Positions 5,277 to 21,881 of a stretch of DNA of 22,011 nt are shown piece by piece. The DNA lies in the IMG/VR virus record IMGVR_UViG_3300035698_020616, positions 1 through 22,011 of that record; one strand, 5' to 3'. Positions within the stretch are counted from its first letter, which is position 1. Every line of letters starts with the position of its first letter. The position numbers were made by a program, and so were the translations under genes. Under the pieces are notes generated by a model. It was not told the DNA's origin, searched no databases, and saw only the letters and a list, made by a program, of their open reading frames with translations. This stretch comes from a virus.

Positions 5277-5765
5277 TTATTTTGTATACTCAATAACCAC
5301 AGTAGTTTGCGTAAATGTAGAGAGGTCAATCCCTGTGGTTATAATGATGTCTGTTTCATCTGCTTCTAATGTAACATTATTCACTAATGTAGGGCTAGAA
5401 AAAGGTAAAGGCATAAATTTAATAGAGGATGGATCAGTTGCTCCTCCATACATTCTAGTAAGTCGGGTTACATTATTTAAGGCTACATTGTGCTGTACTC
5501 TCTTAGTTGTCGCATTTGGAAGAGGTCCAAAGACTACGAGCTTCCTATACACATTGCGTGTGTTCTGAGGATCTTCTGGAATGAAATATCTTTGAAAAGT
5601 AGCTAGCTCTTGAGGTAAGTATAGAGCACCCTCTTTCGTATTGACCACATCTATAACTTTCTTATGCTCTCTCTCGAAGATTTCTGAGAATGCATCAAAA
5701 TTATCTGGGAAATCAAAGTCACTTAATTGGTTTGCTACTAAAGGATTATCACTGCTTGAGCTCAT
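5277..5765 (-). CDS. Probable virion structural protein, unknown function
   Basis: The 162-aa product starts MSSSSDNPLVANQLSDFDFP. A short N-terminal helix (FDAFSEIFEREHKKVIDVV) is followed by an all-beta C-terminal two thirds: FQRYFIPEDPQNTRNVYRK, VVFGPLPNATTKRVQHN, TRLTRMYGGATDP and LSTFTQTTVVIEYTK. This looks like a compact surface or tail-attached beta domain, but I cannot name the family. GGAG lies 9 nt before the start. The ATG overlaps the stop of the HNH gene as ATGA, so expression may now depend on translation of that nuclease gene. It directly precedes the three Gly/Gln-rich genes. Confidence 0.65.
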   Translation of the reverse strand: MSSSSDNPLVANQLSDFDFPDNFDAFSEIFEREHKKVIDVVNTKEGALYLPQELATFQRYFIPEDPQNTRNVYRKLVVFGPLPNATTKRVQHNVALNNVTRLTRMYGGATDPSSIKFMPLPFSSPTLVNNVTLEADETDIIITTGIDLSTFTQTTVVIEYTK

Positions 5766-6421
5766 TTAACATGTCTCCACGTTTTATTCTTGCAAATCAA
5801 ATAAACACTATGATAACAAACATCATAGTCTTTTTTTATTTTATTTATTTTCTCACCAATACCATATCGATTTCGTATTTCCATTATATCAACATCATTC
5901 AATTTTGCGCTTTTTACTTTTTCACCTTTCAATTGGCGGTCTTTTTTTACCTTATCGTGCTGATTATCTTTTGGTGTTCCTATCCATAAATGCTCAGGAT
6001 TGTAACACGCAGGGTTATCACATGAATGACATATATGTTTTCCTTCAGGGATCTCTCCTTTCCAAATTAAATACGATATTCTATGTAATTCCATTTTTCT
6101 TTTTTTTCCACCATATCCAAAACTTCTTCTTCCATATCCTTTAAATCGATATCCTGGCCACTCCCAACACGCTCCATTTATCACTCTCTTTTCTAGAAGT
6201 TCCTTTCGCAATTTCTCATAGTATTCTTTTTTTTCAATTTGTCTATGACATCCACAGCTTATGATTTTTTTTCCTAAAATAGTTTTTGCTTTTGTTATTT
6301 TTTCCTTTCCACATTGACACCTTATTTTCCATAAACTTTCAGAATAATCATTTTTACCTTCAAATTTTATCACTTCAAAATGATCAAACTTTATTCCCTT
6401 CAAATCTATAAAATTTGGCAT
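5762..6421 (-). CDS. HNH homing-type endonuclease with zinc motif and C-terminal HTH
   Basis: The 219-aa product starts at the second of two adjacent ATGs (6421), which places AGAGG 5 nt ahead; 6424 is the alternative. Numbered from 6424, an N-terminal Cys cluster (CQCGK at 36-40, SCGCH at 56-60) forms a likely zinc site. The HNH core follows: H114 in ELHRISYLIWKG, then KHICHSCDNPACYNPEHLW (129-147) with the paired Cys/His, N142 and H145, then N154. The C-terminal 45 residues (KSAKLNDVDIMEIRNRYGIG...YHSVYLICKNKTW) form a helix-turn-helix-like DNA-binding tail. Such proteins cut specific DNA sites and spread as free-standing homing genes. It lies between the nozzle candidate and a structural gene, and overlaps the latter as ATGA. 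It is paralogous to the nuclease at 9719-10360. Confidence 0.9.
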   Translation of the reverse strand: MPNFIDLKGIKFDHFEVIKFEGKNDYSESLWKIRCQCGKEKITKAKTILGKKIISCGCHRQIEKKEYYEKLRKELLEKRVINGACWEWPGYRFKGYGRRSFGYGGKKRKMELHRISYLIWKGEIPEGKHICHSCDNPACYNPEHLWIGTPKDNQHDKVKKDRQLKGEKVKSAKLNDVDIMEIRNRYGIGEKINKIKKDYDVCYHSVYLICKNKTWRHVK

Positions 6422-6467
6422 CATAACCTCTTTTTTAAGGAGTATACCACCTAACTTGTTTTAAATG

Positions 6468-9068
6468 CTAGAAAGTTATTCGTCCCCCTTCTTTTGACCA
6501 CAGAATCATTCCATTTAGAACGAAGGGTACTCGTGCGACTGCGATATCATTCATTTGATCGTCATTATAGGCAATTTCTACGGATACGAATTGACCAAAC
6601 GTTGAGGTGTAAAATCTATTCCAGTAAACATCTAAGGATTGGTTTTGAAATAAAGGGTTCTGCTGAGTATTCATCTCTGTTTGGCCGACTAAAAGGTCAC
6701 CCTCTTCTGCTGTCGCCGAATTCGCATAGATTTTGATTGTAACAACCCCTGTTCCCGTGACATCAGTTAAAAAGTCTATGTAGGTTAATTTTATCTGTTT
6801 ACCATTGGGTAAATAAGGATTGAAATCTTTTGTAAGTATCTTTATCTGAGGTACTAATGCAGCTTTTCCTAAACCGATATAGGTTCCCGTCCCTACAGCT
6901 GGAGTGTAGGAAAAATTAGATATATAACTTTTAGATGTTGTATCCCATTTGACTATCTCTATGTTGTCAGGGTCGTAGGTTCCGCCACTCACTATAGGTC
7001 TTACAAAATATGTTTTTTCATTTAGATCGGTGGTGACGTCTGTAGAATCTGAGGTGTCTATGAAATCTAGATCTGTAACATAAATGATGTCCCCAAAACT
7101 TAGATTATGATTGACGATTTTTAATCTTGGCGGCGTAACTGTTCTATCTACTCCTGTGATGGCTAAAGAATAATCATCTATGCTGTCGCATCCATATTTA
7201 TGGATAAACCCTTCTTGATTTCCTGAAACTGTAAAAGGAAATTGTTTGACTTGTTCGGGATCATCCCAGCTTACTTCGTCATTCCAGAAAACATCTGTTG
7301 AATCCCATGTGATTCCTGTGATGTCTTCATATACTCCAAATGCTGTAACCGAACTTCTGAATATCGAAAAGGTGTTATTTCGGTAGTTATATAGGAGGAC
7401 TTCATTAGGATATTTCTGTGCATTATCTGTGTTTGTAGCATTGTTGTAACACCAATAGACCACTTCTTTTTGGAAATCTCTGATCCCATGGACTCTTTGC
7501 TTTCCCTGATTGTCGTTTCTAAAAGCAAACACTTGGTCAGGTATCTTAAGATCAATGCGATCCACTGATTGTGAAGTCGCCGCGACTATAGCTCTGTTGC
7601 CAACACCTAATACACCATCATCAAAAAGAATTGAGGAGAACTGGCTTTCACTTCCAAAGTCTGAAGATATCCTTTCCCAGATAAAGGGGAGCCCGTAATC
7701 ACCCACATAACGCAATTGCCATGTGGTTTTCTCAAAAAATACAATCAATGTGCTTTTGAAGAATATAGCTGAAATAATCTCTTCATTGGTAGGGGCATCG
7801 ATGAACCCCCCTTTACCAAAGGTATTACTAACCCAAGCTCCTGTTTGAGTGGGATCTCCTACTTGAGAGAAACGTAAACGATTGTAATATTTCTTTGCTG
7901 CCCCTTGAGTCGCACCCTCAAAAGTATTGAAAGCTAAAAGCCTTCCATAATAAGGTATTAGAACCCTAGCAGAGAAGAGAAAGGATGTTTCATACTGATA
8001 ATTCACCATCACAGTGGCGTCTGCTGTCATAGCTGGAGTAATCGTTAATGTGATAGCCCCAGTGGCATAATCTATGGTTCCTGAGTTCGTATTTGCCGAT
8101 CCTTTTAAGGTTCCATCTTTTGCTGGATCTGTGAAAATGACATCAGGATTTGTCCCATTATTACTGACTGTGATCGTTACCGTTCCAGGGATTATGGGAG
8201 TATTAGATATGTTGCTAGGACCAAATAATGTCCAGGGAGTTGTTAAATTCCCAACACTCTCGTTGGTTACTAATGTTCCACCCACTGCAGGTGCAAAATC
8301 TGTCCATGTATTTCCATCCGTATAACGCATAGGGGAGAGTGGATCGTTATTAAAATTCGTAACGAAAAGGTATTTTACTGATTCGTCGGAGGCTCTATAG
8401 TTTGCTCCCCAAAAGAATTCGGAGTCGCTCCCATTCCATGTCTGAGCTGAGGTACCTAGAAATTCTGTATAATTGGTTCCATCAAAAATATAGGCATAGA
8501 TAGTATCAAAAATTATGGTGCTTTCGAAATTTATGTTTCCAGTTTCTCTTTGCATGATCCCCATACATGGGAGAGCCGGAAAATAAGCGTAGGTGATATT
8601 TATTGTTTCTAAGTTTGGGGGAGTCCCTGCACCATCCCATTCTATATGGACGTTTCCTGTTAGGTAATTTACAAATGTTCCCGGATCTATGTCGTAGGCT
8701 ATTCCACTTGTGCGTGTAAAGGTCCCATCTCCTTGATCTGTAAATACTGTGGTATTCCCTCCAAGAAGATCAACCGTTATAACCATGCCAGTCTGCAACT
8801 CTGCATTAGGTTCGTTAGCACGCAGGCTTGTAAGGATATCCGCTATATTATAGGTTCCCGTTCCGTCTGCTGCGGCTTGTAACTGATTAGTGAAAGTCCT
8901 TCGAAGTCTACCTAAAAACTTAATCCCATCCCTTTTTTTTACTCGGTCACGCCAAACATAAGCATTTAAAAGCTCTGGGAAAGCTTTCTCTGGAAGGAGA
9001 AAAGACTTCTTGTCTTTCTCCAATCCCATATCTGAACCAGCTATGTAAAAGGGTCGAGGGTTTGTCAT
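6468..9068 (-). CDS. Large tail hub/nozzle-like protein (DNA stabilisation type)
   Basis: The 866-aa product starts at ATG 9068, overlapping the upstream stop by one base (TGATG), with AGGA 8 nt ahead; a TTG at 9071 is the less likely start. The N-terminus (FLLPEKAFPELLNAYVWRDR, VKKRDGIKFLGRLRR) and the middle are typical of podovirus tail nozzle or P22 gp10-like stabilisation proteins. Examples are YYNRLRFSQVGDPTQTGAW, FFKSTLIVFFEKTTWQLRYV and EVVYWCYNN, which look like beta-propeller blades. Two Ig-like inserts occupy about 100-163 and 296-360 (GTIDYATGAITLTITPAM). A segment at about 636-732 resembles the E1-FCCH-like beta domain (LKIVNHNLSFGDIIYV). The C-terminus is a beta jelly-roll-like stretch. 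The inferred role is to close the portal channel after packaging and form the distal tail. Family assignment rests on motif resemblance. Confidence 0.65.
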   Translation of the reverse strand: MTNPRPFYIAGSDMGLEKDKKSFLLPEKAFPELLNAYVWRDRVKKRDGIKFLGRLRRTFTNQLQAAADGTGTYNIADILTSLRANEPNAELQTGMVITVDLLGGNTTVFTDQGDGTFTRTSGIAYDIDPGTFVNYLTGNVHIEWDGAGTPPNLETINITYAYFPALPCMGIMQRETGNINFESTIIFDTIYAYIFDGTNYTEFLGTSAQTWNGSDSEFFWGANYRASDESVKYLFVTNFNNDPLSPMRYTDGNTWTDFAPAVGGTLVTNESVGNLTTPWTLFGPSNISNTPIIPGTVTITVSNNGTNPDVIFTDPAKDGTLKGSANTNSGTIDYATGAITLTITPAMTADATVMVNYQYETSFLFSARVLIPYYGRLLAFNTFEGATQGAAKKYYNRLRFSQVGDPTQTGAWVSNTFGKGGFIDAPTNEEIISAIFFKSTLIVFFEKTTWQLRYVGDYGLPFIWERISSDFGSESQFSSILFDDGVLGVGNRAIVAATSQSVDRIDLKIPDQVFAFRNDNQGKQRVHGIRDFQKEVVYWCYNNATNTDNAQKYPNEVLLYNYRNNTFSIFRSSVTAFGVYEDITGITWDSTDVFWNDEVSWDDPEQVKQFPFTVSGNQEGFIHKYGCDSIDDYSLAITGVDRTVTPPRLKIVNHNLSFGDIIYVTDLDFIDTSDSTDVTTDLNEKTYFVRPIVSGGTYDPDNIEIVKWDTTSKSYISNFSYTPAVGTGTYIGLGKAALVPQIKILTKDFNPYLPNGKQIKLTYIDFLTDVTGTGVVTIKIYANSATAEEGDLLVGQTEMNTQQNPLFQNQSLDVYWNRFYTSTFGQFVSVEIAYNDDQMNDIAVARVPFVLNGMILWSKEGGRITF

Positions 9069-9703
9069 CAAGCAAATCCTATTCCTAAACCAAAAAATAC
9101 AACTTTATACGTCTGACTATCTCCTAGTCTTCTCACATCAAAACCCGTTGTTGCTATAGTAGATTGTTGTATAAAGAAATCTTGTGGTGAATTTACAGTG
9201 GTATCATTTCTTTGAGGTGAAAACCATTGAGTCAAAATTGTTTGAAATTCATATTGATAACGGCATTTTAATGGGTTTGAACTTGCTACCGCTTGTTGTT
9301 CTCCCCATTGTAGTATCAATCCTCCTGGTAAAAATGTCCACCCCCCAGTGGAGTCCACTGAATCAGCAGTATAATTCGTATCTACTCCAAACGTAGCTTG
9401 ATTAGCTTGTTTTACAGTGGTCATCTGATACTCTTTTCCACTGCTTTCGCCTCTGAAGAAAAGGTTGGCTTCTGCCGGTGTAACCCCTACTTTGGTATAC
9501 AATCCCCCTTCGTTCGATGCTGTAGCTGGCGCTGATCCTTGTTCTGGCATTTGAAGGAATTTATGTTTTCCTTCTCCTGAAGAATTAAAAGCTACGTGGT
9601 TAACGGCTTCAACTATAGCAATCTCTTTAAAGTTCTCATTAATTCTTGCTCTTGTTCCGCCTAGTGTCTCACCAGACTGGGGGATATCATTGGAATATGT
9701 CAT
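9068..9703 (-). CDS. Tail fibre or collar-like protein
   Basis: The 211-aa product starts MTYSNDIPQSGETLGGTRAR, continuing INENFKEIAIVEAVNHVAFN, which resembles the attachment end of many phage fibres (short motif with R-x-R-I-N-x-N-F). The middle (EGGLYTKVGVTPAEANLFFR) is beta-rich. The C-terminal part has TGGWTFLPGGLILQWGEQ, the GG(L/F)xxQWG element found in tip domains of tail fibres, then strands ending VVFFGLGIGFA. AAGGAG lies 7 nt before the start. It is coupled to the nozzle candidate by TGATG, which fits a fibre or spike attached to the tail hub. Its short length for a fibre suggests an adaptor or short spike. Confidence 0.65.
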   Translation of the reverse strand: MTYSNDIPQSGETLGGTRARINENFKEIAIVEAVNHVAFNSSGEGKHKFLQMPEQGSAPATASNEGGLYTKVGVTPAEANLFFRGESSGKEYQMTTVKQANQATFGVDTNYTADSVDSTGGWTFLPGGLILQWGEQQAVASSNPLKCRYQYEFQTILTQWFSPQRNDTTVNSPQDFFIQQSTIATTGFDVRRLGDSQTYKVVFFGLGIGFA

Positions 9704-9718
9704 GTAATCTCCTTATAC

Positions 9719-10360
9719 TTAAACACTTATGTGACCCCACAATCTTCCACTTTTTATGTGATAAACATGAGATACAGATATATTAAAGTCTGTTGCAATC
9801 TGCTTTGCAGCAATGTTTTCTTTTAATTTAGTTTTGATGTTTTTAACGATTCCATTGTTTAATTTGGCTAAATGATGTTTTTCCCCAGATTTCCCTGGAT
9901 GGTTATATTTTCTTCCAAATTGTAGTTTTTCAAAGTGTTCTTTTGAAATTTTTCTACCCTTTAGATCAAACTTTCTCCCTTTTTCTATCATATCCTGAAT
10001 ATTTTCTTTTTGAGTACCTTCCCATAGATGATCAGGGTTTATACATAATCTAACATCACAAGTATGGCAAACATGCTTGCCTTTGGGTATATCTCCTTTA
10101 AATGCTAAATATGAAGCTCTATGTGCAGATATGGTTTTTCCTTTGTTATTTAGTTTTCCATAGCCATTTTTTCCAGCTGGACCTTTCCAAATCCAACATC
10201 CATCTTGCACTTTTTCTATTCTTTGTAAAACCATATCTTTTAAACTCGTATGCCTAAATTCTTGCATACATTCAAGTGAACAATATTTCTTTCTACCTTG
10301 TGTGTAATCATAAGCTTTAAATTCTTTTTTGCAATTTTTGCATTTCAATAAGTATGTCAT
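9719..10360 (-). CDS. HNH homing-type endonuclease with zinc finger and C-terminal HTH
   Basis: The 213-aa product has a treble-clef-like zinc motif at the start (C7, C10, C27, C31; CKNC...YCSLEC). The HNH core includes H80 (ISAHRASYLAFKGD) and GKHVCHTCDVRLCINPDHLW (94-113), with N108, H111 and N120. The C-terminal part (HHLAKLNNGIVKNIKTKL, then DFNISVSHVYHIKSGRLW) is a helix-turn-helix-like tail closely matching the one in the nuclease at 5762-6421. GGGAG provides the ribosome binding site. The start codon falls inside one arm of a perfect inverted repeat (10353-10393). The gene is inserted between a tiny basic protein gene and a fibre gene within the late block. Site-specific DNA cleavage and self-spread are the family role; the target site is not known. 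Confidence 0.9.
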   Translation of the reverse strand: MTYLLKCKNCKKEFKAYDYTQGRKKYCSLECMQEFRHTSLKDMVLQRIEKVQDGCWIWKGPAGKNGYGKLNNKGKTISAHRASYLAFKGDIPKGKHVCHTCDVRLCINPDHLWEGTQKENIQDMIEKGRKFDLKGRKISKEHFEKLQFGRKYNHPGKSGEKHHLAKLNNGIVKNIKTKLKENIAAKQIATDFNISVSHVYHIKSGRLWGHISV

Positions 10361-10393
10361 AAAATTTCTCCCGTATGTGTATTTTATGACATA
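10353..10393 (-). promoter_or_regulatory. 13-bp inverted repeat covering the HNH start codon (translation-control hairpin)
   Basis: TATGTCATAAAAT at 10353-10365 and ATTTTATGACATA at 10381-10393 are perfect complements around a 15-nt loop. In minus-strand RNA the GGGAG ribosome binding site sits in the loop and the ATG (10360-10358) sits in the 3' arm of the stem. Folding would occlude the start codon. There is no U-run after it, so it is not a simple terminator. Confidence 0.6.
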
Positions 10394-10402
10394 TGTGGAT
10401 TT

Positions 10403-10546
10403 TTATCTACCTCTTTTTTTAGATTTTACTATGCCGGCTGAATTTAATGCAGCAGCTAGAGATTGTTTTTGAGAATACCCTGAGCCTTTCATCTCTTTTA
10501 TATTCTTACTGATAATTTTTTTTGATTTCCCTTTCTTTAACGGCAT
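10403..10546 (-). CDS. Tiny basic protein (DUF6496-like)
   Basis: The 47-aa frame begins MPLKKGKSKKIISKNIKEMK, followed by GSGYSQKQSLAAALNSAG and a basic tail ending KKRGR. AGAGG lies 4 nt before the ATG. The pattern (Lys-rich start, S..NIKEM, G(Y)xQKQ(A/S)xAxAL..AG) is that of the small DUF6496-type proteins common in phage structural regions. Their function is not established. A DNA-associated or minor virion role would fit the charge but is a guess. It follows another tiny basic gene by 14 nt and precedes the HNH gene. Confidence 0.7.
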   Translation of the reverse strand: MPLKKGKSKKIISKNIKEMKGSGYSQKQSLAAALNSAGIVKSKKRGR

Positions 10547-10752: not shown

Positions 10753-11832
10753 TTAACCATTATTTCCACCCCATCCACCAAATCCTCCGCCCATACCATT
10801 GAGTTGGCTAGAATAGATCGTTCCGATGCGTTGTTTTCCAAGTTCTGCGTATGTCCTAGTCTCATTGAGTGCATAGCGTTCATTAAGCATTTTGTCCATC
10901 ATCATAATACCGTCAAGATCCTGTCGATCCTCGAAGATCTTCTTCGCTGCTCCTGCTGCTAATGTCTCCCACCACTCGAGAAGCTCTGGGATCCCTGTTG
11001 TAGTTGGCGAGTCTGGATTTACACTTCCTAGGAGGATTTGAGAAGGTCTCCTATAGGCTACGATCTCAACAGTATAAGCCCTGTCTGGTACTGGGCGAAG
11101 TGTGATCTGGTTCTGGAAAAACAGAACTGCTTGGGGAATCGCATTGTTTGATGGGTTGTAGCTGATGTTTATTTCAGTTCCTGAGGGTACTGCAGTTGAG
11201 AAAATGAGACCTGCTATCACTCCTGTTGTGTAATTGATAGTACCCCCAGCTAAAACATCTCCTATTAAATTTCCGTTACCATCATCAGTAACATGCAAAG
11301 ATCCATTTGCCACATTTGCACTAATGAGGATATTCTGGATTCTGGACGGGTTTGGCTCATTGAAAGTTGTAGGGTATGAACCTGTTGCAAATGTCGCTGT
11401 TACCGTCTCATTTGTTTCTACTAATGGGTTATTGTTAATACTCGCTTGGATAGGTATCGATTTTAACGTGCCCGCATAAGGCCCGGTTGTTCCATCTCCT
11501 GTATCAAACGTCTCTTTGTTTTGCCAGTTGAAAAACAGGTTAAAGAATGGCCATAAACTATAGTAGAGAGGGACTAAGCGCTTGTCGACATAGGCTGGGG
11601 ACTCAAGACTCTGATAATGCTCATAATCAAACTGATAAGTTCCTACGTTTTGGATGGTATTTAGAGTAAAGGTGTCTTTAAGTTGTAAGCTCCTGAACTC
11701 TGAGGGGAAGTCATAGAGGTAAAAGGAATTGATGTAATCTATGATAGTTGAATCGGTAAGCTGTAGAGAATTACCCGTACCCGTGAGCTTCCTCACTTTT
11801 ACCAGTATATCTGCTAATGTGGCTGTCGACAT
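10753..11832 (-). CDS. Head-tail adaptor / tail tubular A-like protein with Ig-like insert
   Basis: The 359-aa product has an N-terminal helical part (TLADILVKVRKLTGTGN, TIIDYINSFYLYDFPSEFR) and a C-terminal part (RAYTVEIVAYRRPSQILL, then PELLEWWETLAAGAAKKIF and EDRQDLDGIMMMDKMLNERY). These are hallmarks of podovirus tail tube/adaptor proteins that bind below the portal. Between them, about residues 118-226, is an Ig-like beta insert (LHVTDDGNGNLIGDV...GGTINYTTGVIAGLIF...EINISYN) that also appears in the 866-aa protein. The tail end is Gly/Trp-rich (GMGGGFGGWGGNNG). A strong AGGAGG is 6 nt before the start, which overlaps the upstream stop as TAATG. The adaptor role is inferred from the two flanking parts and from gene order. 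Confidence 0.65.
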   Translation of the reverse strand: MSTATLADILVKVRKLTGTGNSLQLTDSTIIDYINSFYLYDFPSEFRSLQLKDTFTLNTIQNVGTYQFDYEHYQSLESPAYVDKRLVPLYYSLWPFFNLFFNWQNKETFDTGDGTTGPYAGTLKSIPIQASINNNPLVETNETVTATFATGSYPTTFNEPNPSRIQNILISANVANGSLHVTDDGNGNLIGDVLAGGTINYTTGVIAGLIFSTAVPSGTEINISYNPSNNAIPQAVLFFQNQITLRPVPDRAYTVEIVAYRRPSQILLGSVNPDSPTTTGIPELLEWWETLAAGAAKKIFEDRQDLDGIMMMDKMLNERYALNETRTYAELGKQRIGTIYSSQLNGMGGGFGGWGGNNG

Positions 11833-20818: not shown

Positions 20819-21127
20819 ATGAGATATGTAAAACATAAATTCAAAGCTAAATCTTGTGAATCAGACGGTATAAAGTTTGGAAGCAAGAAAGAAAGAGCTT
20901 ATTATGAACGCCTTAAACTTCTTCAGAAAAGTGGCGAAATTTTATTTTTTTTAAGACAGGTTCCGTTTGATCTCCCTGGAAAGGTTCGATACTTTTGTGA
21001 TTTTTTAGAGTTCCATGCTGATGGGAATTGTGTTTTTACTGAGGTGAAGGGGTATATGACCGATTTAGGTCTGATGAAGCTTAAAGTTGTCCAGGACCTT
21101 TACAATATTGACATTAATATTGTATAG
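20819..21127 (+). CDS. DUF1064-like PD-(D/E)XK nuclease
   Basis: The 102-aa product matches the DUF1064 layout. A basic start (MRYVKHKFKAKSCESDGIKF) is followed by GSKKERAYYERLKLLQKSGE with E25. After a strand (LRQVPFDLPGK) comes the catalytic core YFCDFLEF...VFTEVKGYM, with D61, E75 and K77 as the expected D...ExK triad. The C-terminal helix and strand (LMKLKVVQDLYNIDINIV) complete a small restriction-enzyme fold. Such proteins are predicted phage endonucleases, probably for branched or packaging-related DNA, with substrate unproven. TAGG lies 5 nt before the ATG. It is slightly shorter than usual members but has all core elements. It lies close to the terminase, on the opposite strand. Confidence 0.78.
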   Translation: MRYVKHKFKAKSCESDGIKFGSKKERAYYERLKLLQKSGEILFFLRQVPFDLPGKVRYFCDFLEFHADGNCVFTEVKGYMTDLGLMKLKVVQDLYNIDINIV

Positions 21128-21134
21128 TGATCGT

Positions 21135-21881
21135 ATGAATGCAAAACAAACCCATACCTGTAAATTTTGTAACACCTCATTTAAGGGATATTTAAACAGG
21201 GGGAAGCCACCGATTTATTGTTCAATGGAATGTAAATCTATGGATTGCTACGAGTTTAAAAAATGTAAATTTTGCAACATTTCTTTTAGGACAATGAAAT
21301 GCAAAAAAAGAGAATTTTGCTGTCAGACTTGTTCGAATTCCCATACTCATAAATTAAGATCTAAAAACACTAAGAAAAAAGAACTTATATGTTTAAATTG
21401 CAAAGAAAATTTTACTACATCGCTAAAATTTTACAAATTAAAACTAGCAAATAAAACACAAATAAAGTTCTGTTGCAGAGAGTGTTACATTGTTTTTAAA
21501 AAGAGTTTAACCTTAAAAACTTGTTTGTTTTGCCAAAATAAATTTCACTACAAAGACAAAAAATCTCAATATTGTTCAGTGAAATGCGTAAGTGAACACA
21601 GGATTGAAAAGCATAAAAATTGTCCTGGTAGGTGGAAAGAAAATGGATATATTGTGATTTATACAGGGAATGGGAACGGCATAAAAGAGCACATAAAGAT
21701 TATGGAAGATCATCTAGGGAGAAAGCTAGATAGGAAAACAGAGTGTGTTCATCACGTGAACGGAAAAAAAGATGACAACAGACTTGAAAACCTTTTATTG
21801 ATGACTCCTAGTGATCATGTTGCTCTCCACCGAAAACAAGATATTGAAGAGGGGAGATCTTTATTTGGAAGAGATAAATAG
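21135..21881 (+). CDS. HNH endonuclease with four tandem zinc-binding modules
   Basis: The 248-aa product starts at ATG 21135 (MNAKQTHTCKFC), 7 nt after the previous stop; the frame is open from 21087 but that part overlaps the nuclease gene. Four CxxC...CxxxC modules occur in series: C9/C12/C29/C33, C44/C47/C62/C66, C86/C89/C113/C117 and C130/C133/C147/C151. The HNH domain is C-terminal: GYIVIYTGNGNGIKEHIKIM, then ECVHHVNGKKDDNRLENLLL with H206, H207 and N219, and H228/H232 in SDHVALH. This is a different HNH subtype from the two on the minus strand, because it lacks their Cys-rich loop and C-terminal HTH. The modules probably read DNA sequence. No clear Shine-Dalgarno is seen, but TTGACA lies at 21108-21113. 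Confidence 0.88.
   Translation: MNAKQTHTCKFCNTSFKGYLNRGKPPIYCSMECKSMDCYEFKKCKFCNISFRTMKCKKREFCCQTCSNSHTHKLRSKNTKKKELICLNCKENFTTSLKFYKLKLANKTQIKFCCRECYIVFKKSLTLKTCLFCQNKFHYKDKKSQYCSVKCVSEHRIEKHKNCPGRWKENGYIVIYTGNGNGIKEHIKIMEDHLGRKLDRKTECVHHVNGKKDDNRLENLLLMTPSDHVALHRKQDIEEGRSLFGRDK

Follow-up and report, generated by a model that had tools for sequence, protein, structure and literature searches.

The start codon of an HNH_3 endonuclease gene lies within a perfect hairpin in the window (the whole stretch of viral DNA analyzed here, 22,011 nt; IMG/VR record IMGVR_UViG_3300035698_020616, positions 1 to 22,011). This hairpin is probably a translational lock on a mobile nuclease gene, with a host-type promoter inside it. 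On read-through RNA from upstream, the 5′ arm would pair with the start codon, and ribosomes would initiate poorly. A sigma70-like promoter, with its −10 box within the 5′ arm, would give rise to an additional short transcript that begins in the loop, lacks the 5′ arm, keeps the GGGAG sequence, and can be translated. The arrangement would presumably serve to keep nuclease production from the structural transcript low. The lock reading is based on the predicted fold, chance tests, opening energies, the promoter-like match, a comparison of the same junction in relatives, and enrichment in three nuclease families. We infer that the promoter fires, that the read-through RNA is made, and that the lock holds firmly enough to have an effect. 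The hairpin consists of the following elements:

10381 to 10393, minus strand: 5′ arm, TATGTCATAAAAT (sequence, fold, and repeat search)
10366 to 10380, minus strand: 15-nt loop, ACACATACGGGAGAA, carrying the Shine-Dalgarno (SD) sequence (sequence and repeat search)
10353 to 10365, minus strand: 3′ arm, ATTTTATGACATA, carrying the start codon (sequence, fold, and repeat search)
10368 to 10372, minus strand: SD-like GGGAG in the loop (sequence; anti-SD duplex energy, −7.4)
10358 to 10360, minus strand: ATG of the HNH gene, within the 3′ arm (sequence and ORF)

All 13 of 13 bp in the AU-rich stem are paired (minus strand, 10393 to 10353), and 7 nt separate the GGGAG from the ATG. The hairpin alone has a predicted energy of −10.5 kcal/mol. 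None of 200 shuffles was as stable as the 101-nt fold around it (z = −3.68), and the identical stem is present in a 1,161-nt fold. The window contains three inverted repeats of at least 11 nt with arms no more than 60 nt apart, the hairpin being the sole fully complementary one, and no perfect repeat of 13 bp enclosing up to 60 nt occurred in any of 60 dinucleotide-shuffled windows. When the SD-ATG part was fixed and the upstream 44 nt were shuffled 1,000 times, the observed cost of opening the start region (computed for −14 to +3) was reached in 0.5% of the shuffles and the observed start-codon pairing in 1%. With the AUG in the stem, the SD in the loop, and an opening cost of 10.3 kcal/mol, the gene shares with T4-type hairpin-regulated homing endonuclease genes a stable predicted hairpin over its start on read-through RNA. 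The original prediction of a 13-bp hairpin with the ATG in its stem and GGGAG in its loop was thereby confirmed by sequence, fold, and shuffles.

The putative promoter runs across the 5′ arm:

10381 to 10386, minus strand: −10-like hexamer TAAAAT, on the loop side of the 5′ arm (promoter scan)
10404 to 10409, minus strand: −35-like hexamer TAGATA, with a 17-nt spacer, overlapping the 3′ end of the small ORF before the hairpin (promoter scan)
10372 to 10376, minus strand: predicted RNA start (about 10374) of the nuclease's own transcript, in the loop (placed from the −10 position)

The match, TAGATA-17-TAAAAT, is sigma70-like with 9 of 12 consensus positions and a score z of 2.5 over shuffles, in an AT-rich window where promoter-like matches are frequent (63 seen versus 44.7 expected). 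Its −35 hexamer is a poor match, and a sigma70 match would be meaningless if the phage encodes its own RNA polymerase. The hairpin stayed significant (rank, 0.037) in shuffles that left the −10 and −35 hexamers in place. To the eye, the sequence of the 5′ arm is CATAAAATA, unlike the T4 late promoter type TATAAATA; judged by its P22-type portal, the phage is not T4-like. Starting about 7 nt beyond the −10 box, the predicted RNA would have a leader of about 14 nt and retain the GGGAG. The original prediction held that the ATG is hidden on the read-through RNA and freed on a shorter transcript starting inside the hairpin (10366 to 10393). The predicted start falls within this range, and the folds agree: the predicted opening cost is 10.3 kcal/mol on the read-through RNA versus 2.2 kcal/mol on RNAs starting at 10385 to 10377 and about 1.1 kcal/mol on those starting at 10376 to 10372. 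These modeled energies support the idea of a lock with a short escaping transcript. A terminator was rejected as a reading of the repeat: on the minus strand, the AT-rich stem is not followed by a run of T, and a terminator-like site is present on the plus strand only (10371 to 10398), with counts of such sites at chance (10 seen, 12.9 expected).

The genes around the hairpin are as follows:

9719 to 10360, minus strand: HNH_3 endonuclease gene, 213 aa (Pfam and PHROG)
10403 to 10546, minus strand: small basic ORF upstream, 47 aa, with its stop codon at 10405 to 10403 (sequence)
9068 to 9703, minus strand: fiber-like gene downstream, with a gp53-like C terminus below the Pfam cutoff (Pfam)
10753 to 11832, minus strand: SU10-adaptor-like gene upstream, used as the query for junction relatives (Pfam)

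The 213-aa protein matched the HNH_3 family in Pfam (E = 4.5e-10) as well as PHROG endonucleases, and all 17 invariant family columns were found in it. The gene order is SU10-adaptor-like, small basic ORF, HNH_3 nuclease, and fiber-like, in a block with the P22-type portal and the major head protein. The latter is 77% identical to a major head protein encoded on a 40-kb Verrucomicrobia MAG contig (L307), a weak hint of the host. On the minus strand, the HNH gene (10360 to 10353) and the next fiber gene (9703 to 9696) share the opening ATGACATA. The fiber start may have been duplicated during nuclease insertion, or the shared opening could represent copies of target and operator, as for I-TevI-like autorepression.

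Next, we compared the same junction in relatives. Among the 42 adaptor-encoding loci found, a nuclease at the adaptor-fiber junction was present on three contigs, namely, the window, L008 (the same contig as L049), and the L042/L043 pair; such patchy presence at one junction fits mobility. The L008 nuclease, the nearest homologue, is 58% identical to the window's over residues 3 to 146, and its start lies within a 20-pair helix (−40 to −20 with −3 to +16) that has AAGGAG near its top. The L008 arm sequences are unlike those of the window, and the start is covered nonetheless (opening cost, 12.4 kcal/mol; rank, 0/60). The L042/L043 nucleases (33% identical to the window's) start at the adaptor stop and had no hairpin in the fold test at the junction. 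Among other close homologues, start-codon pairing but not opening cost was significant in L053 and L057, and neither measure was in L055 or L056. Of the 31 nuclease-less junctions (26 distinct), none of the 26 was occluded at the fiber start by opening rank (top cost, 7.1 kcal/mol), and in L010, L011, and L015, the small basic gene leads straight into the fiber gene. The hairpin is therefore not a feature of the fiber gene, and it arrived with, or arose on, the nuclease cassette. The original prediction had pointed to this comparison of junctions with and without the nuclease, which came out in its favor: L008 keeps a start-covering helix, and the nuclease-less junctions have no such structure. 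The contrary evidence it had named, a homologous nuclease gene whose start region is the same yet lacks the pairing arms, did not turn up among the sequences compared (L042/L043 and L056 lack the hairpin, but their start regions differ). As for the proteins themselves, the L008 nuclease (L008:7140-7697) has a NUMOD3 C terminus (Pfam, 4.4e-7), and the C terminus of the window's copy aligns with other HNH proteins. The adaptor genes of L042, L043, L045, and L048 contain an in-frame stretch of about 240 additional bases at residue 111, flanked by the two matching parts.

We then surveyed start occlusion in phage nuclease genes on contigs of environmental viruses; the controls were other genes from these loci. 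Starts lying close to a contig end, in the window and in the loci, were dropped, as were those whose start window differed from a kept one by no more than 30% Hamming distance. This left 83 starts from 100 ORFs for HNH_3, 68 from 85 for a second HNH_3 set (5 of them seen before), 80 from 92 for EndoVII-like genes, and 74 from 111 for LAGLIDADG genes, the last two before removal of seeds; two control samples, of 500 and 387 genes, yielded 332 and 360, from which 6 endonuclease genes were taken out. What prompted the choice of the EndoVII-like and LAGLIDADG families was that members had turned up among hairpin-positive controls, and those seeds (2 and 1, respectively) were removed. Start sites were picked by a simple score and some are wrong, which should dilute the difference rather than create it.

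An opening rank of at most 0.05 was observed in 43 of 686 controls, which may include unrecognized mobile genes, compared to 13/83 in HNH_3, 14/68 in the second HNH_3 set (P = 2e-4), 26/78 in EndoVII-like (P = 7.5e-11), and 18/73 in LAGLIDADG (P = 3.3e-6) genes; even after distance filtering, related genes within a family retain some dependence. Noncoding upstream DNA does not account for the excess: the picture was the same when only genes with noncoding DNA at −40 to −1 were considered (HNH_3, 8/45; EndoVII-like, 24/46; LAGLIDADG, 16/55; controls, 22/324). Start-codon pairing (Pstart) was the statistic preset as primary, and the secondary one, opening cost, proved stronger. Start-codon pairing was significant in 15/83 HNH_3 (P = 1e-4), 10/78 EndoVII-like (P = 0.013), and 9/73 LAGLIDADG (P = 0.022) genes versus 36/686 controls; for the second HNH_3 set, there was no significant excess (6/68; P = 0.17). 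By opening rank, 70/83 and 54/68 genes of the two HNH_3 sets were without the feature. The hairpin was thus rejected as a universal property of HNH genes. Two T4 genes served as positive controls, I-TevI (14.5 kcal/mol; rank, 0) and segB (15.9 kcal/mol; rank, 0), and the nuclease of Shigella phage CT02 was also positive by the opening test. The excess in opening cost was not significant for T4 mobE, the defective I-TevIII, T7 2.8, 3.8, 5.3, and 7.7, or the PS-1 and ES18 nucleases. A comparison gene, T7 gene 3 (endonuclease I; L306:1258), has its start in a hairpin (14.7 kcal/mol; rank, 0/60).

Promoter-like sequences and hairpins occurred together in the nuclease genes. With the window excluded, 35 of 60 hairpin-positive nuclease genes reached a promoter score of at least 8, compared to 35 of 171 hairpin-negative ones (P = 1e-7) and 33 of 324 controls with noncoding upstream DNA. 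In 30 of the 36 genes with both features (window included), the transcript from the predicted start loses at least half of the opening cost, versus 20.5 expected for random placement of the −10 box in −45 to −14 (P = 0.0004); for controls with both, 6 of 9 were freed versus 5.2 expected. L008 (GGGACA-17-TATGAT) and L027 (TTGACT-17-TATGAT) have a promoter-like match in the same place as the window. In several genes, among them L219:2492, L187:103, L232:2486, L383:2351, and L360:2330, the outer part of the 5′ arm carries TATACT or TATAAT, with an anti-SD, loop, SD, and start after it. When the −10 and −35 hexamers were held fixed, 4/17 HNH, 7/17 EndoVII-like, and 13/37 LAGLIDADG genes were positive, compared to 6/33 controls, whose six positives include three endonuclease seeds and one gene matching HNH PHROGs (L287:2942). 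On these fractions, with four of the six control positives being nuclease-like, the promoter alone was rejected as the cause. Hairpins also occur in some promoter-bearing control genes.

This specific enrichment of promoter-like sequences with hairpins in nuclease genes, at positions that would free the start, speaks against a lock with a different key. The hairpin might instead be opened on the same long RNA by ribosomes terminating on the upstream small ORF, by RNase cutting, or by temperature, which we regard as unlikely. The small-ORF stop sits 9 nt from the hairpin base, the AU-rich stem is worth −10.5 kcal/mol, and the hairpin-free L042/L043 nucleases that begin at the adaptor stop indicate that coupling is an available mode at this junction. 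A terminating ribosome, however, should cover no more than a few bases at the beginning of the 5′ arm.

The combination of lock and internal promoter has known counterparts. According to the reviews PMC2988022 and PMC3014915, ribosome-binding-site (RBS)-sequestering hairpins with an embedded late promoter control I-TevI, I-TevII, I-TevIII, segB, and Aeh1 mobE, so the T4 homing nuclease precedent invoked in the original prediction is correct. As in the window's gene, the SD and AUG of T4 I-TevI lie in a hairpin on read-through RNA with the same computed signature, and transcription from within or next to the 5′ arm yields a short, freed RNA, as is predicted for the window. Unlike the window's gene, I-TevI is an intron-encoded (td) GIY-YIG nuclease with a T4 late promoter (phage sigma) rather than a sigma70-like one, and its control has been proven by experiment (reviewed in PMC2988022 and PMC3014915), whereas the window's is predicted by computation. 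T4 segB and Aeromonas phage Aeh1 mobE are, like the window's gene, free-standing nuclease genes with RBS-sequestering hairpins, and mobE is likewise an HNH gene, but both belong to T4-type myoviruses with late promoters. The start regions of T4 e, soc, and 49 are hidden on early read-through RNA and freed on late RNA (PMC3014915); unlike the window's gene, these are ordinary phage genes (49 encodes endonuclease VII) and not mobile nucleases. In the openly licensed literature, hairpin descriptions of this kind were found for T4-type phages, and a term search of two phage-nuclease papers, PMC10448857 and PMC12724721, turned up no mention of hairpins.

I-TevI also represses its own promoter via an operator (PMC2988022). 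By this precedent, the window's inverted repeat could be a DNA operator for the nuclease, or for another protein, with the RNA fold being secondary. The window's arms are perfect as DNA too, and the −10 box lies in one arm, as an operator requires. We consider this reading very unlikely, since the L008 helix, with 5 G-U among its 20 pairs, makes a poorer DNA palindrome than the window's, and since one arm regularly covers the SD or ATG across families, a cover that an operator would not need; the operator and RNA lock roles could nevertheless coexist. The chance of a functionless AT-rich repeat left by nuclease insertion is slimmer still: the shared ATGACATA opening hints at a start region duplicated at insertion and several homologues have no hairpin, but such a repeat was absent from all 60 shuffled windows, the opening cost gave P = 0.005 with the SD-ATG fixed, and recurrence in three nuclease families speaks against chance.

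Since the mechanism of a translational lock with an internal promoter is already known from T4-type phages, the newer part here is the host-type promoter, the non-T4 phage, and the recurrence in three families. We lean, by a little, toward the view that mobile nuclease genes in phages far from T4 are generally controlled by such a switch, evolved convergently, with the −10 box of a host-type promoter in the arm that hides the SD or start of HNH_3, EndoVII-like, and LAGLIDADG genes. If so, one short element would both silence the read-through RNA and start the RNA that escapes, and selfish genes in crowded phage operons would have repeatedly solved the problem of residing in an operon while escaping expression from it. 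A promoter in a hairpin could then be a sequence mark of selfish passenger genes. The survey yields such a computable mark along with many test cases.

The window has two other HNH genes. The second (5762 to 6424, minus strand) lies between a tail-like gene and a gene for a 162-aa protein; a TATACT lies some 19 nt ahead of its start, which also shows a minor CTCC/GAGG pairing, and the gene was not significant in the fold test. The third has a 92% inverted repeat (21098 to 21127, plus strand) just before its likely ATG at 21135. A promoter-like TTTACA-18-TATAGT (21099 to 21128, plus strand) overlies this repeat, and an RNA from it would begin at about the ATG, making a leaderless message possible.
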